Source: an uncultured Candidatus Poseidoniales archaeon (GTDB lineage Archaea; Thermoplasmatota; Poseidoniia; Poseidoniales; Poseidoniaceae). Taken from it: DNA of 64,000 nt. A program made the position numbers and the translations under genes. Below, in pieces: positions 3,911 to 9,922 of the stretch. The first letter of the stretch is position 1. Each line of letters begins with the position of its first letter. The stretch covers positions 39,964 through 103,963 of the forward strand of contig CACLCM010000002.1 of NCBI GenBank assembly GCA_902605365.1, written 5' to 3'. A model generated the notes under the pieces. The model made no database searches. It was not told where the DNA came from and worked only from the letters and a program-made list of their open reading frames with translations.

Positions 3911-3993
3911 GCCGAGATCGCATAGCCTGGTATTGCGGTGGATTCGAAATCCACTGTCCCTTGGACGCGGGAGTTCAAATCCCCCTCTCGGCG
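3911..3993 (+). tRNA. tRNA-Ser(CGA)
   Basis: Acceptor stem GCCGAGA/TCTCGGC, anticodon arm GTGGA-TTCGAAA-TCCAC (anticodon CGA), extra-long variable arm, T-loop TTCAAAT, discriminator G; class II structure. Confidence 0.92.
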
Positions 3994-3996
3994 CTT
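3970..3996 (+). repeat. attL-like copy of the direct repeat (3' end of tRNA-Ser)
   Basis: GGAGTTCAAATCCCCCTCTCGGCGCTT; 26/27 identical to 7504..7530. Confidence 0.8.
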
Positions 3997-4060
3997 TCAC
4001 TTATGTTGAAGGTTCACTTAAATCGATACAAAATCACGATTATTCTCAATTTGAATTATT

Positions 4061-4177
4061 TTAATAATGACGCAGAACTCTAATTTGATTACTGATTTGT
4101 TTTAGGCGCCTCATGGCTTTCATTTCGTTCCGCCCAACATGCTTGCCCATTTCCAGCTCACGTTCTAGTCTCTCCAT
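4061..4177 (-). CDS. Possible small coiled-coil protein (38 aa)
   Basis: Short ORF read by eye: MERLERELEMGKHVGRNEMKAMRRLKQISNQIRVLRHY*; below the ORF-track size cutoff. Confidence 0.3.
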   Translation of the reverse strand: MERLERELEMGKHVGRNEMKAMRRLKQISNQIRVLRHY

Positions 4178-4208
4178 TTCTCTTTGCAGAGAATGAATAG
4201 TTTGTGAT

Positions 4209-6338
4209 TTAGTATTGTCTCCCTCTTAGAGATTTAGAGACTCTTTGAGGCGCTAAATTTGATTGGTGAACTCCAACTCCCAGATTTGATATAATTTTCT
4301 CAGTAGCATCTAATATTCTCTTAACATGGGTTTTTGTCAGTTTAATACCTGAATCCTCATTGTGTACCTCGTCGTTTCGAAGAATCCTAGCTTGCTGTAA
4401 TTTGTCTAACATAGCGCTAGTGAATTTCATTTCATTGGCAATTACATCAATCAATTTCAAAGCAGCACCTTTCCCTTCAGGCATTGGCTCTGTTTGAGTC
4501 TCGCACCACATTTCTTTAGCGTGTGATTCGAATCGAGTAAATGCTGCAGTTAGAGAATCCTCTAGTGAACCTCTTTCTATAGCGCTCTTAACCTTCATAC
4601 TCAATTTATCATTTCCACTGTTTAGGTTTGGATAAATACTGTAATCAAAAAGTGTATTTTTATTTCCTATCTCCTTCTCAACAATTACTTCTTTCTCAAC
4701 AATTACTTCCTTTTCAATAATTTTCCTCTCTACAACAACTTTAGTTTCCACTATTCCGCCTTCCAGATTAGAAATACAAATTTCATCAAATGGAGAGCAA
4801 CTCAATAGTTGATTAAGTTCGTTCAGATTAAGATTAGGTCCTGGTAGATCACTAGCGTTATGTTTCTCTAGTAGCCTATCCAAACTCAAATGCGAGGTTG
4901 GGCTAGATTCAACCATCTCGTAAAGCATAGCCGCCCTTGGACTTGAATAACCAAGGTATGGATCGATTTTCCATCCTATGCTGTTACCCCAGGCTACATT
5001 TTCTCTTGTTAGTGGCAAATTCAATTGAGGGAGTTTTTCATTTACATTTTGGAATGTTCCGAAGGTCATTGGTTGCAAATTCATCTCAACCGCTTTCTTG
5101 TAAGTTGTTGGAGTCCAACCTAAATTTTCCAATTTCTTAACTTCTTTACTAGGTAGGTATGGAGGATCGGTTAAAGTATTGACATTCCCTCGATTGATTG
5201 AATACCCAATGTTTGGAGCAACAAAATTACTGCTCCATGCTGCAGCCTCTGCTCCAGATAAGTGTTCAGGAGGGTGCATACGATGGCTATTAGTGATAAT
5301 AATGTAAAACCAATCCTTTGCCCTATTGTATTCAGCTAAAGTTGAAAATTTTGTTTTCCTTAATTGATTAAATTCATCGATTGAGGTTACTCCTGATGAC
5401 TTATATAATTCAAAATCATTAGGGTTTTCAATACCCAATCTTGCACAAAAATATATGTCCTCATTCTCCTTGATTCCAATACTGTTGTAGTATGATACAA
5501 GTAATTCATTTCCTTCGATTATTGTGGCTAGCTTGTTTAGACATTCATCTACCACTTTTTTGAGGTTTTCTGCCCTGCCAGAATAATGGTAAGAAAGCCA
5601 TTCTGCATGAGAACTATTCGATGATGTGATTAAGTTTAAACCATTTTCACCATTCATTTTGTCCTCCAATTCATTCTCCCATACCGCTTCAAATAATTCA
5701 TAGAAGTGATTGGACAGCATACGGATATTAAATTTAAAATCAGGATTTTTGGTTTTGTATTCAGGTTCTTGCCGATAACCGCCACGGTTATCTCGAATGT
5801 AGTTACCTTGTTCATTGCGAACATTAACTTTTCTCATCCAGCTTGATTTTTGCCATTCGCCCCAACAAAGTTCCACCCAATGATTATGATTAAAATTAAA
5901 CCGATTTTTTGAGTCACCTCCATATTTCTCCCACCATTTAGGATCAGATTTGATTATAGGAGCAATCAAAGTGTATTCTTCAGAATGTTTACCATTAGTA
6001 AATCTGAAATTTTCAATAGATGTTTTATGTATAATTTCACCACGTATTTCAAAAATTTCATTCTTAGTAAGATAAACTGTTTCGCTTTGGCGATAAATTT
6101 CAAAATCATGCCAAGAGAATGAAACTGTAGTTATTTGCGGATTAAAATCCCTAGCTACAATCACTGTGATCTTCGATTCAGGAACTGGAACATCCGAGAG
6201 TTTCTTTAGTTGATAAGCCACAGTAGAGCGCTTCAGGCCTAATTCATCTGCTATTTCTTGGTGAGTTCTGCCTCTTGCTCTCAATTCCATTATCCTCTGC
6301 AACTCGTTGTCGGTGACCATGCTTATCCGAACAGTCAA
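4209..6338 (-). CDS. HTH / coiled-coil / putative C-terminal HEPN-domain protein
   Basis: N-terminal HTH (ELQRIMELRARGRTHQEIADELGLKRSTVAYQLKKL); repetitive coiled coil (VVVERKIIEKEVIVEKEVIVEKE); helical C-terminus with QQARILRNDEVHNED, matching the HEPN R-x4-H motif. Confidence 0.7.
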   Translation of the reverse strand: MTVRISMVTDNELQRIMELRARGRTHQEIADELGLKRSTVAYQLKKLSDVPVPESKITVIVARDFNPQITTVSFSWHDFEIYRQSETVYLTKNEIFEIRGEIIHKTSIENFRFTNGKHSEEYTLIAPIIKSDPKWWEKYGGDSKNRFNFNHNHWVELCWGEWQKSSWMRKVNVRNEQGNYIRDNRGGYRQEPEYKTKNPDFKFNIRMLSNHFYELFEAVWENELEDKMNGENGLNLITSSNSSHAEWLSYHYSGRAENLKKVVDECLNKLATIIEGNELLVSYYNSIGIKENEDIYFCARLGIENPNDFELYKSSGVTSIDEFNQLRKTKFSTLAEYNRAKDWFYIIITNSHRMHPPEHLSGAEAAAWSSNFVAPNIGYSINRGNVNTLTDPPYLPSKEVKKLENLGWTPTTYKKAVEMNLQPMTFGTFQNVNEKLPQLNLPLTRENVAWGNSIGWKIDPYLGYSSPRAAMLYEMVESSPTSHLSLDRLLEKHNASDLPGPNLNLNELNQLLSCSPFDEICISNLEGGIVETKVVVERKIIEKEVIVEKEVIVEKEIGNKNTLFDYSIYPNLNSGNDKLSMKVKSAIERGSLEDSLTAAFTRFESHAKEMWCETQTEPMPEGKGAALKLIDVIANEMKFTSAMLDKLQQARILRNDEVHNEDSGIKLTKTHVKRILDATEKIISNLGVGVHQSNLAPQRVSKSLRGRQY
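4678..4731 (-). repeat. 18-nt in-frame tandem repeat (about 3 units) coding for hexapeptide (I/V)(V/I)EKE(V/I)
   Basis: TCAACAATTACTTCTTTC / TCAACAATTACTTCCTTT / TCAATAATTTTCCTCTCT in consecutive 18-nt steps. Confidence 0.8.
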
Positions 6339-6352
6339 AACTACATAAATGT

Positions 6353-6383
6353 TTGGAATTATTCCAATTAGTTGGAATTATTC
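6353..6383. promoter_or_regulatory. Tandem operator-like repeats in the divergent intergenic region
   Basis: TTGGAATTATTC occurs at 6353-6364 and 6372-6383 (19-bp spacing); the first lies in the near-perfect palindrome TTGGAATTATTCCAA (6353-6367). Confidence 0.6.
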
Positions 6384-6458
6384 TCGATTTAGATGGGGCA
6401 AATACAAGCCCTTGTAAGTGTTGGCAAGATTAATTATGAGCGAGCATGAGTAACTGTT

Positions 6459-7451
6459 GTGTGGGATGGATACAACTATTTTGATACCGAAAATTTTCGC
6501 ATTGAAATTGGAAAAATACTGGACCGATTACGTGCAGATACAGCGGACATTAGCAAAGAATTTCCACTAAGAGAACTGAAGAATCAACTCACGGGAGGTT
6601 CTCTATCTGCTCTATCTAGTCACTGGAGATCTCAAGGAATAGTTAGGAGTGGCACTAGGTTGAGAGGCAAAAAATCGACCATGCTTCATGATGAAGGACA
6701 TGTCTTGTGGGAGAAAGAAGAGTGGAGACTAATTCGAAATAAGGAAGAGAATCGATTTCAGGAATTGCTAAAAGATATGCAGAATCTTGCATTAGAACCA
6801 TTAACAAATATTGTTCTTAATGCTGAAGATGACTACCTTTCTGATAAATCATTGAAACTTATTTGTATATTTGAAGGAGGAAGTTCAGTTGACTTATTGA
6901 TAGATTTTTTACAAAATGTAGAAGTTAATCATCATAGAAAAATGTCAGTTGTAGAAGAGATGGTAAAAATAGGAGGCGAAAAATTTGTTGATCCTTTGCT
7001 TCGAGTTTTGGACTTGGAAGAAATTGAAATTCCAGGTACTGGAGAACTTCTAGGACTGAAAATCATACGCGCATTGGGTAGTATCGGAAGTGAGAAGGCA
7101 GTAGAACCATTACTCAATTTGTTTGAAAGAAAGAACCAGACGAATGGATATGGTTCTGTTGCTTCTGCGCTAGGATGTATTGGAGATAAAAGAGCTGTTG
7201 AGCCATTGATTGAGGCCTTATCAGATGAATCTTGTAAATGCAAGGGAGACGTAGTAAAGGCACTTGGTTTACTTAATGACAAAAGAGCTGTAGAACCGCT
7301 TATTGGCGCTTTAGATGATGAAATGTGGTATGTTAGAAGCGTTGCAGTAAAATCACTTACTTCTATTGGAGGTTCGAAAGTGAAAGCTGCTTTAGTTGAC
7401 TATGACTATAGGGATATTAAATATGGAGGAAGTTACAAGCCAAGTTCCTGA
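6459..7451 (+). CDS. HEAT-repeat (PBS lyase-type) protein
   Basis: Repeats such as ALGCIGDKRAVEPLIEALSDES, ALGLLNDKRAVEPLIGALDDEMWYVRSVAVKSL; N-terminal ~90 aa basic and distinct. Confidence 0.8.
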   Translation: MWDGYNYFDTENFRIEIGKILDRLRADTADISKEFPLRELKNQLTGGSLSALSSHWRSQGIVRSGTRLRGKKSTMLHDEGHVLWEKEEWRLIRNKEENRFQELLKDMQNLALEPLTNIVLNAEDDYLSDKSLKLICIFEGGSSVDLLIDFLQNVEVNHHRKMSVVEEMVKIGGEKFVDPLLRVLDLEEIEIPGTGELLGLKIIRALGSIGSEKAVEPLLNLFERKNQTNGYGSVASALGCIGDKRAVEPLIEALSDESCKCKGDVVKALGLLNDKRAVEPLIGALDDEMWYVRSVAVKSLTSIGGSKVKAALVDYDYRDIKYGGSYKPSS

Positions 7452-7503
7452 TTTTTATCAATGTGGTAGTAATTATTTCTGAGTAAAATAGGGGCCCAAA
7501 AAC

Positions 7504-7530
7504 GGAGTTCAAATCTCCCTCTCGGCGCTT
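7504..7530 (+). repeat. attR-like displaced tRNA-Ser 3' fragment
   Basis: GGAGTTCAAATCTCCCTCTCGGCGCTT; 26/27 identical to 3970..3996; no 5' tRNA half adjacent. Confidence 0.8.
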
Positions 7531-7580
7531 AACAATCGTAGATTGTTGGCTAGGTTTGTCAATCAGAGATTGAACAAACC
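7531..7580. terminator. Pair of stem-loops, possible bidirectional terminator
   Basis: AACAATC-GTA-GATTGTT (7531-7547) and GGTTTGTCAATC-AGA-GATTGAACAAACC (7553-7580), between convergent genes ending at 7451(+) and 7592(-). Confidence 0.55.
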
Positions 7581-7591
7581 GGCGCTCAAAA

Positions 7592-8968
7592 TCATTCTTC
7601 TTCAATAGTAGAATCATACTCAGACTCTAATTGCTTGACTATCTTTTCATTTAATCCGAAGGTAGATGCAACTGTATCGAGTAACTTTCTCTCCTCTTTA
7701 GTGATAATACGGTCTTCCATCGCCGTCCTATATGCATCCAAGTATGCGGTTTCCTCAGGCGTATGCGTTTCAGGAATGAAGCGATTAGATGCTTTGTCTA
7801 TAATTAACAAAATTGGTTTTCTTACCACAAGCAAGGATACACCGATAAAGACTCCGCCAGCCGCTCCATAACCAATCAAACTCTCCATTAGTTCACTTCC
7901 AACAATGAAGGAAATGACACCTAAACCAGTGAATACTGCCGTTGTGAAGCCTTTTCGTAGGTTATTATCGATCCCAAATACAGTATCTTTCAGGGTAGCG
8001 TGAACGAACATCATTGCTTCAAAGGCAATTGCAGCTGGAGTTATAGTAAGAGAAAATATCCACGCAAAGAATAACATTCGTTCCGTGAAATTGGGGTCAC
8101 CGTATCTCCAAAGAGTTTCATCAATAAACGTCACTTGGCTTCCATGTACTACAGAAATTAATATCAATAGTATAAACCAGAACATCAGTAATACTACCTT
8201 TCCTAAAAATCCAATGTACAGGGACCTTGAAGTGAGACTTTTACTGAAGTCGGGATTATCTCCCTCTTTGTAAGATTTTATTGAAGAACGTATGAACAAT
8301 AATGCAAGTAATGAAACCATAGGAGAACCTAGAGCAATTGCCCATAAACCAGGAGGCTGTGTTGTTACCGTTGCCTCATAACTAGCAGTACAGTCACCAG
8401 TATCCTTGAAATCATCCTCAATACCTTGTCTCCATTCTTCATCCTCACCAAACCAACGATCTGTTGTTGGCTCTTCGCCTTCTTCACAAACTACCCATGT
8501 TGCGTCTGAAACATAGAATGCAGGTACTGTTCTAATCAGTAACCAGATTGTAATTCCCAGAGCGGGAGCAATATACCAGGCATGCTTTTTGAATGAAGGC
8601 TTGTGCATGAAACTGAGTCTGTTCAATCGGTAGTAAATCGGTATACACAGATACATAATTACGGCTGTAATATGGGCTGTGAAGAATACATCGATTGTCC
8701 AATGCCATAGAATATCTTGTAGCCATTCATATCTTCTGATGTAAGGTGTGACTTGTGCAACAATAAATGATGCCTTTATCCCTTCGCACACCAATAATAC
8801 AGACATAAATTTATTTTCAAATCCTTTTGATTTAGCACGCCAAACCAAAGCAGCTAATGCTACACAATAAAACAATATCAGTAGGGAACTGATAGAAATG
8901 ATCATCCTAAAACCAAAAAGATTGTCAGCGCTGAAAGCACCAATATAGTATTCTTGGACGGTTCTCAT
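7592..8968 (-). CDS. Uncharacterised multi-pass membrane protein with acidic C-terminal helical domain
   Basis: 458 aa, about 8 TM segments, C-terminal TAMEDRIITKEERKLLDTVASTFGLNEKIVKQLE resembling TerB-like or EF-like segments. Confidence 0.75.
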   Translation of the reverse strand: MRTVQEYYIGAFSADNLFGFRMIISISSLLILFYCVALAALVWRAKSKGFENKFMSVLLVCEGIKASFIVAQVTPYIRRYEWLQDILWHWTIDVFFTAHITAVIMYLCIPIYYRLNRLSFMHKPSFKKHAWYIAPALGITIWLLIRTVPAFYVSDATWVVCEEGEEPTTDRWFGEDEEWRQGIEDDFKDTGDCTASYEATVTTQPPGLWAIALGSPMVSLLALLFIRSSIKSYKEGDNPDFSKSLTSRSLYIGFLGKVVLLMFWFILLILISVVHGSQVTFIDETLWRYGDPNFTERMLFFAWIFSLTITPAAIAFEAMMFVHATLKDTVFGIDNNLRKGFTTAVFTGLGVISFIVGSELMESLIGYGAAGGVFIGVSLLVVRKPILLIIDKASNRFIPETHTPEETAYLDAYRTAMEDRIITKEERKLLDTVASTFGLNEKIVKQLESEYDSTIEEE

Positions 8969-9043
8969 ACTTCGTGTTCAAATGATACATTTAATTGGTT
9001 TTTTGGCTACATAAACAATATTTTTGTAGGATTAAGACTACTA

Positions 9044-9922
9044 TTAATCGTTTAATTTGCTCTTTATCAAACCTATAATTTGCATGGTTTGGTTATTGAA
9101 AACTATAGTTGCAAATAGTGATGTAAAGATTAACATCAGCCACCACATAGAGCCTAAACCTGCAGTGTATTCACCACCAAATAGATCGCCGTGGTCGATT
9201 GAAGAGGTTATTATCAGATGAATAAACAAGCTGGAAAGAATTATGATTACTGAAAAACCCCAACCTACAGAGCCGAACCTTTGATATTGTTCTTCTACAA
9301 AACCAGAATTAATGATTCCGCTTCCTCTTAAAATTTCAAGAACTAGCAAAGTAATAATGACAAGTAAAGAGAGGTACAAACAAATCTGCAATATTAGCCC
9401 TGATGTAGACATTTCATTAACTCCAACCAGTTTAGCAGTCTCTTCACCGACCACTTCCTCGAACTCAGAATACTCATATTTCTGAGTTTGAGATTGCCCC
9501 ATAAAAAATGTGTAAGTAGTCGTTACTTCGAAATCGTTCAACCCATAGTCAATACTAGTCGATTGCTTATAACCATCATCAACTTCTTCATGTTCGAGAT
9601 TATACCATGAATAAGAACCTAATGAAGTGAAAATAAGGAATACCATGATCGTTGCCATCCCAAACTTGGCAGCCTTCCAACCATCAATATCGACTGCACC
9701 TAAACCCCCTTTCAACAAGGCAGATAAGTAGGGAGTATCTTCGCTATTTGCTAGTCTGGCTTTTTTGAGATTTCCAGATTTGGATTCAATTTGTTTAGGT
9801 TTTTTATTTGCATATAGGCGCAAAATCAATTCTGACTTTTTACCGCTGGTTGGAAGACCTTTTGATTTGAGCAATTCCTTGAGTTGGGGAACTGTCATAG
9901 ATTGATTAGCGTCTTTAACCAT
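9044..9922 (-). CDS. SAP-domain membrane protein
   Basis: N-terminal SAP motif (MTVPQLKELLKSKGLPTSGKKSELILRLYANKK) followed by about 4 TM segments. Confidence 0.75.
   Translation of the reverse strand: MVKDANQSMTVPQLKELLKSKGLPTSGKKSELILRLYANKKPKQIESKSGNLKKARLANSEDTPYLSALLKGGLGAVDIDGWKAAKFGMATIMVFLIFTSLGSYSWYNLEHEEVDDGYKQSTSIDYGLNDFEVTTTYTFFMGQSQTQKYEYSEFEEVVGEETAKLVGVNEMSTSGLILQICLYLSLLVIITLLVLEILRGSGIINSGFVEEQYQRFGSVGWGFSVIIILSSLFIHLIITSSIDHGDLFGGEYTAGLGSMWWLMLIFTSLFATIVFNNQTMQIIGLIKSKLND

Follow-up and report, generated by a model that had tools for sequence, protein, structure and literature searches.

Within the 64,000-nucleotide stretch of DNA analysed here (the window), a unit of 3,534 bp (3994 to 7528) lies directly against the 3' end of a tRNA-Ser(CGA) gene, and is probably an integrase-less integrated element, possibly composed of two modules, that is mobilised in trans by a tyrosine recombinase. 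The window comes from a metagenome-assembled genome that, judged by its gene content and relatives, belongs to the Marine Group II (MGII; Poseidoniales-type) archaea, an abundant and uncultured group in which the agents of gene movement are poorly known. The original prediction read this region as a genomic island inserted at the 3' end of the tRNA gene, and that reading is well supported by empty sites, by other cargo at the same position and by non-uniform gene content among relatives. Given that the corresponding spot in sister species is either empty or holds other genes, the position is a genuine and much-used insertion site.

The tRNA gene and its repeated 3' end

The tRNA-Ser(CGA) gene is intact (3911-3994, plus strand). 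It is the sole tRNA called by ARAGORN in the window and the only Rfam match above threshold (RF00005, 50.2 bits), and its 3' end would act as the attachment site (i.e., attB, and attL after integration). The segment from the T-arm to the tRNA 3' end (GGAGTTCAAATCCCCCTCTCGGCGC, 3970-3994, plus strand; attL) has a second copy at 7504-7528 (plus strand; attR), which is an orphan tRNA 3' end and differs by one mismatch, CCCCC to CTCCC. Allowing up to three mismatches on both strands of the 64 kb, GGAGTTCAAATCCCCCTCTCGGCGC has these two matches and no more (0.00 in shuffles), and in a self-BLAST of the region the tRNA 3'-end repeat, scored as 27/1, is far ahead of any other. Across the genome's own assembly, GGAGTTCAAATCCCCCTCTCGGCGC has no further strong match outside genuine tRNA-Ser genes.

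The occurrence of a tRNA 3' end at 7504 with no tRNA 5' half, as initially observed, was confirmed by ARAGORN, the repeat scan and the shuffles. The repeat had been drawn as 3970-3996 and 7504-7530 with one mismatch; this stands for 25 nt but not for the two terminal T's (3995-3996 and 7529-7530), which are not safely part of it, as the empty site of genome G011 reads GCGC-CTAACAATC and the right side in the window reads GCGC-TTAACAATC. As in tRNA-targeted integrative elements, a repeat of the tRNA 3' end bounds the DNA and the tRNA is intact. The CCCCC allele of the left copy is shared with the sister genomes G011, G025 and G031. Over the T-stem of tRNA-Ser(CGA) (3970-3986), one clade has GGGAG/CCCCC, with an A-C mismatch, and other relatives have GGGAG/CTCCC.

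Empty sites in related genomes

The DNA between the repeats (3995-7503) is absent from G011 and G025, and has a GC content of approximately 36-37%, versus approximately 45% in the flanking core genes; the variable genes to the right of the insert (7592-9922) are likewise AT-rich. In both sister genomes the tRNA joins CTAACAATCGTAGATTGTTGGCTAGG... directly, while in the window CTAACAATCGTAGATTGTTGGCTAGG is found only to the right of the second repeat. When 3995-7528 is excised in silico, the window yields a gap-free alignment of 3,491 bp to G011 at 92.2% identity; when it is not, the alignment splits in two at the repeat. At the level of this alignment, the comparison shows that the window and G011 differ by precisely one unit, from tRNA end to tRNA end. 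The proposed search of related genomes for an empty tRNA-Ser site or different cargo hence returned both: base-exact empty sites, a mark of integrative elements, in G011 and G025, and other cargo elsewhere. Ancestral DNA would have the same gene content at this locus throughout, and the content differs among related genomes.

An insertion hotspot

Genomes of the genus conserve the gene order PAC2, SAMP2-like, tRNA-Ser(CGA); on the far side of the tRNA, a pair of PD-(D/E)XK genes (RPA599 and RPA534 in the window) and an ABC ATPase gene occur in most of them. Between tRNA-Ser(CGA) and the PD-(D/E)XK genes, relatives hold SAP-domain, MFS, M23 peptidase, zinc-ribbon-like or unknown genes, or none. 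This interval is a hotspot whose contents vary between species. In the window it also contains an older variable gene for a 458-aa membrane protein (7592-8968, minus strand), which is present in G011 and absent from G025 and G031, and a variable gene for a 292-aa SAP-domain membrane protein (9044-9922, minus strand), which is present in G031 and absent from G011 and G025.

Variation is also found within single metagenome-assembled genomes (MAGs). In both G014 and G029, two contigs agree in the tRNA 5' flank but not downstream of it, where one is empty and the other occupied; G029 shares its occupied left end with G021. Contigs end at the 3' end of tRNA-Ser(CGA) in 7 of 23 genomes, versus 0.26 expected (P of approximately 3e-9 under random breaks), a statistic that uses rounded genome sizes and contig numbers and to which non-mobile repeats could contribute. 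In G006 (L060, G006:C33:290-320), the tRNA 3' end reappears after a scaffold gap (NN) with other DNA next to it, which probably makes G006 a third case of a MAG that contains two forms of the site. In G018 (L204-L207), there are two tRNA-Ser(GGA) plus tRNA-Thr(GGT) loci with differing downstream DNA, due to either duplication or strain mixture.

Immediately beyond the right repeat lies a 57-bp mini-element with two hairpins (7529-7585, plus strand), which ends in another CGGCGC and in empty sites is directly 3' of the tRNA. Mini-elements of this kind, 57-59 nt long (window, L055, L043, L016, L082 and L178), were found nowhere but immediately 3' of tRNA-Ser genes, and follow two isoacceptors, CGA and GGA. 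Their stems are preserved with different bases (fold z of -4.8, -3.2 and -3.7). The hairpins were also considered as integron attC sites, and this was rejected by eye because they are too short and do not match the GTTRRRY box.

Cargo genes

The larger gene encodes a 709-aa protein (4209-6338, minus strand; probable start ATG at 6320) with an N-terminal helix-turn-helix (HTH) at residues ~6-50, a long orphan middle and a helical C-terminus that contains an RNDEVH motif. The HTH matches Pfam HTH_20 at 9.7e-5, below the curated cut-off, and the C-terminus matches HEPN_Cthe2314 weakly (Pfam, E of 0.069). Since RNDEVH resembles the HEPN motif (Rx4-6H), the protein might be a HEPN protein. Its structure model has a pLDDT of 36 for the whole and 49 for the C-terminus, which is too poor to judge the fold, and a fold search with these poor models gave no match below E of 1. 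One of the other 170 genomes of the family, G016, has a close relative of the gene, in the form of a fragment; PAJN01, a marine MAG labelled "Euryarchaeota archaeon", contains a close relative of the cargo. Across the order, the search for homologs of the HTH protein gave generic HTH matches only.

The promoter region of the HTH gene (6339-6395) contains the near-palindromes GGAATTATTCCAATTAGTTGGAATTATTC. Close to each end of the HTH module (4039-4054 and 6379-6393) is a copy of an imperfect direct repeat, ATTATTCTCAATTTG; its right copy overlaps the promoter palindromes, and the repeat could represent an operator or the module ends. Past the stop of the 709-aa gene (4050-4208, minus strand), another frame reads by eye as a charged, coiled-coil-like tail, EGDNTKSQTIHSLQREMERLERELEMGKHVGRNEMKAMRRLKQISNQIRVLRHY, which may reflect either a frameshift or an overlapping small gene.

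The second gene encodes a 330-aa HEAT-repeat (PBS-lyase-like) protein (6459-7451, plus strand; Pfam HEAT_2 6.4e-21, HEAT_PBS 8.9e-17). No full-length relative exists in 171 genomes of the family, which gave partial HEAT matches only. When defence-family models were compared with the island proteins, HEAT or HTH parts alone were matched, and for this protein the HEAT part alone. Our best guess, a weak one, is that the cargo pairs a regulator with an effector and serves defence or the maintenance of the element.

Lateral movement and a second member

Part of the HTH gene together with its promoter, 428 bp in all, is 96.5% identical between G016 and the window, against 72-78% in the flanking core DNA. 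Contig ends truncate the G016 copy. The contig with the HTH fragment continues into the PD-(D/E)XK gene, and the contig on the tRNA side ends inside tRNA-Ser(CGA); this layout places the HTH DNA at the same locus. Over 124 codons the two genes have four synonymous and six non-synonymous differences; hence selection on the protein fails to explain the identity and transfer does. Given the contrast with the flanks and the shared locus, the HTH DNA has moved laterally between species, and the island thus has the sporadic, laterally moved content that is typical of integrative elements.

Homology between the window and G016 ends at 6393, within the promoter region, which may mark the right edge of the HTH module. 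In G016 this point is followed by a GGCGC core and then by host flank; the HTH module is thus able to exist on its own, with no HEAT module beside it. Judging by this one break in homology, the island may consist of two stacked insertions, of which the HTH module, adjoining the tRNA, would be the later. Neither this stacking nor the hotspot with its variation inside single MAGs was part of the original prediction.

The right arm of the element (7470-7503, plus strand; TTTCTGAGTAAAATAGGGGCCCAAAAAC) is common to the window and to an orphan attachment site in G018. There, an orphan copy of the repeat follows TTGAGTAAATAGGCCAAAAATGG, which matches TCTGAGTAAAATAGGGGCCCAAAAACGG in the window. Among 319 genomes of the order, the right arm was found in these two. 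To the right of the orphan repeat, G018 encodes a 780-aa protein, a DUF92-like protein, an aldehyde dehydrogenase and MsrA (names given by eye). Because similar genes follow tRNA-Ser(CGA) in a different genus, the orphan site of G018 can be placed, indirectly, at the same tRNA.

Search for a recombinase and proposed mechanism

Profile searches (Pfam, PHROGs and NCBIfam) and the defence-family search revealed no recognisable integrase within the island, in agreement with the earlier reading of the enclosed ~3.5 kb, and no integrase fragment was found there either. The idea that close relatives might have a linked integrase at this site was not borne out in the genus: none was present at the sites examined, among the ORFs of the tRNA-to-RPA599 gaps read. 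In 27 genomes of the genus, PF00589 detects one XerA-like recombinase of ~340 aa in most, outside the gaps read; extra PF00589 genes occur in G006, G016 and G017 (the copy on G016:C58 is near tRNA-Glu), none of them in these gaps. Given the window's own genome is ~60% complete, a recombinase elsewhere in it could be missed. As for free forms, viral contigs gave no match to the attachment site, the right arm or the island proteins, phage records gave no match to the HTH protein, and the plasmid search gave one distant HEAT protein. An integrase gene of its own is usual for autonomous integrative elements, although not for all islands; as none was found here, the island is classed as integrase-less and not as an autonomous integrative element.

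We propose that the DNA entered through site-specific recombination into the tRNA-Ser(CGA) 3' end, with the tRNA left intact. Since no recognisable recombinase is encoded, integration would most likely occur in trans, through the tyrosine recombinase of a helper (i.e., a virus, a plasmid or a larger MGII element). We infer this dependence on a helper, as the simplest model to work with, from the absence of an integrase only. Strand exchange would probably take place within the terminal ~12 bp of the tRNA gene, CCCTCTCGGCGC. Given that attR has CTCCC and the tRNA has CCCCC as in its sisters, the crossover is probably 3' of that base; if the ancestor had CCCCC, the exchange would fall within CCCTCTCGGCGC, 3' of the variable base. 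Other junctions at the site retain only GGCGC (G016) or CGGCGC (the 57-bp element).

Remnant, satellite mobilised in trans and minimal cargo island had all been offered as readings of the island. The last two fit best, since HTH DNA recently crossed species here and G018 shares the element end, and the remnant is the main rival. According to it, a larger element or virus with an integrase inserted at this site, and deletion then left two cargo genes that can no longer move. The lack of an integrase, the mosaic look of the window element, the single variable genes that other species hold at the site and the retention of repeat ends, as in many remnants, all agree with such a history. However, the element is complete to the base at both ends and its empty site is an exact one, G018 shares the right arm together with an orphan repeat, G016 holds the HTH module at the site as near-identical DNA with no HEAT gene, and the search for an integrase fragment yielded none. 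We therefore regard an immobile remnant as rather unlikely.

Much less probable is a self-mobile HTH module whose 709-aa protein would act as a recombinase of an unrecognised type. This protein is encoded by the only gene common to the window and G016 insertions, carries an HTH on a long orphan chain, and has near-palindromes beside the module end. Yet Pfam, PHROGs and NCBIfam reveal no tyrosine, serine or DDE catalytic signature in it, its model is too poor to lend structural support, and the G018-type end could not be linked to an HTH gene, as the G018 contig begins only ~80 bp ahead of the repeat. Recombination between tRNA-Ser genes, whether homologous or illegitimate, several of which genes have identical 3' sequence and two different ones of which are followed by the 57-bp mini-element, is the least credible source of the new DNA, as 25 bp is short for homologous recombination, and repeated, differing insertions exactly at the tRNA 3' end with base-exact empty sites fit a fixed-site enzyme.

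Comparison with known elements

Under the preferred reading of an element mobilised in trans, several known systems are comparable. Archaeal attachment sites favour tRNA 3' ends and can be very short, and several families of archaeal integrative elements have repeats of 40-60 bp (PMC8371274). The island resembles the tRNA-targeted tyrosine-recombinase islands described there in its position at a tRNA 3' end, its intact tRNA, the direct repeat at its far end and its sporadic distribution. It differs in having no integrase, only two genes and a repeat of 25 bp instead of 40-60 bp.

The Charybdis elements of Poseidoniales are 3.7-5.2 kb long, and some are integrated beside tRNA genes; they have about ten genes, including the hallmark Gp3 double-Greek-key protein (~230 aa) and mostly a methyltransferase, and all integrated ones have an integrase (PMC12324425). 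The island comes from the same host order, is similarly small and is adjacent to a tRNA. Unlike Charybdis, it has only the genes for 709 and 330 aa, which are set apart from Gp3 by description, and its ORF listing shows neither Gp3 nor about ten genes, nor was an integrase found. Charybdis elements are possibly one source of the trans-acting integrase.

Hitcher elements and other helper-mobilised satellites (PMC11389934) would work alike if the integrase acts in trans; unlike hitchers, the island has no recognisable packaging or transfer genes and no assigned helper.

Significance

The island is a known kind of element, with new members in a poorly known host; its recent movement is well evidenced, and it involves no demonstrated new mechanism. 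A broader and more speculative possibility, which we consider doubtful for now, is that MGII archaea harbour a whole family of integrase-less elements with one or two genes each, which would share the tRNA-Ser(CGA) site and the right arm, swap cargo, stack, and use a recombinase in trans that needs as little as a GGCGC core, which would make it a minimal archaeal satellite system. The site itself is a hotspot defined by sequence, with empty, occupied and polymorphic states, and this makes gene flow, helper identity and cargo function traceable in existing ocean metagenomes.
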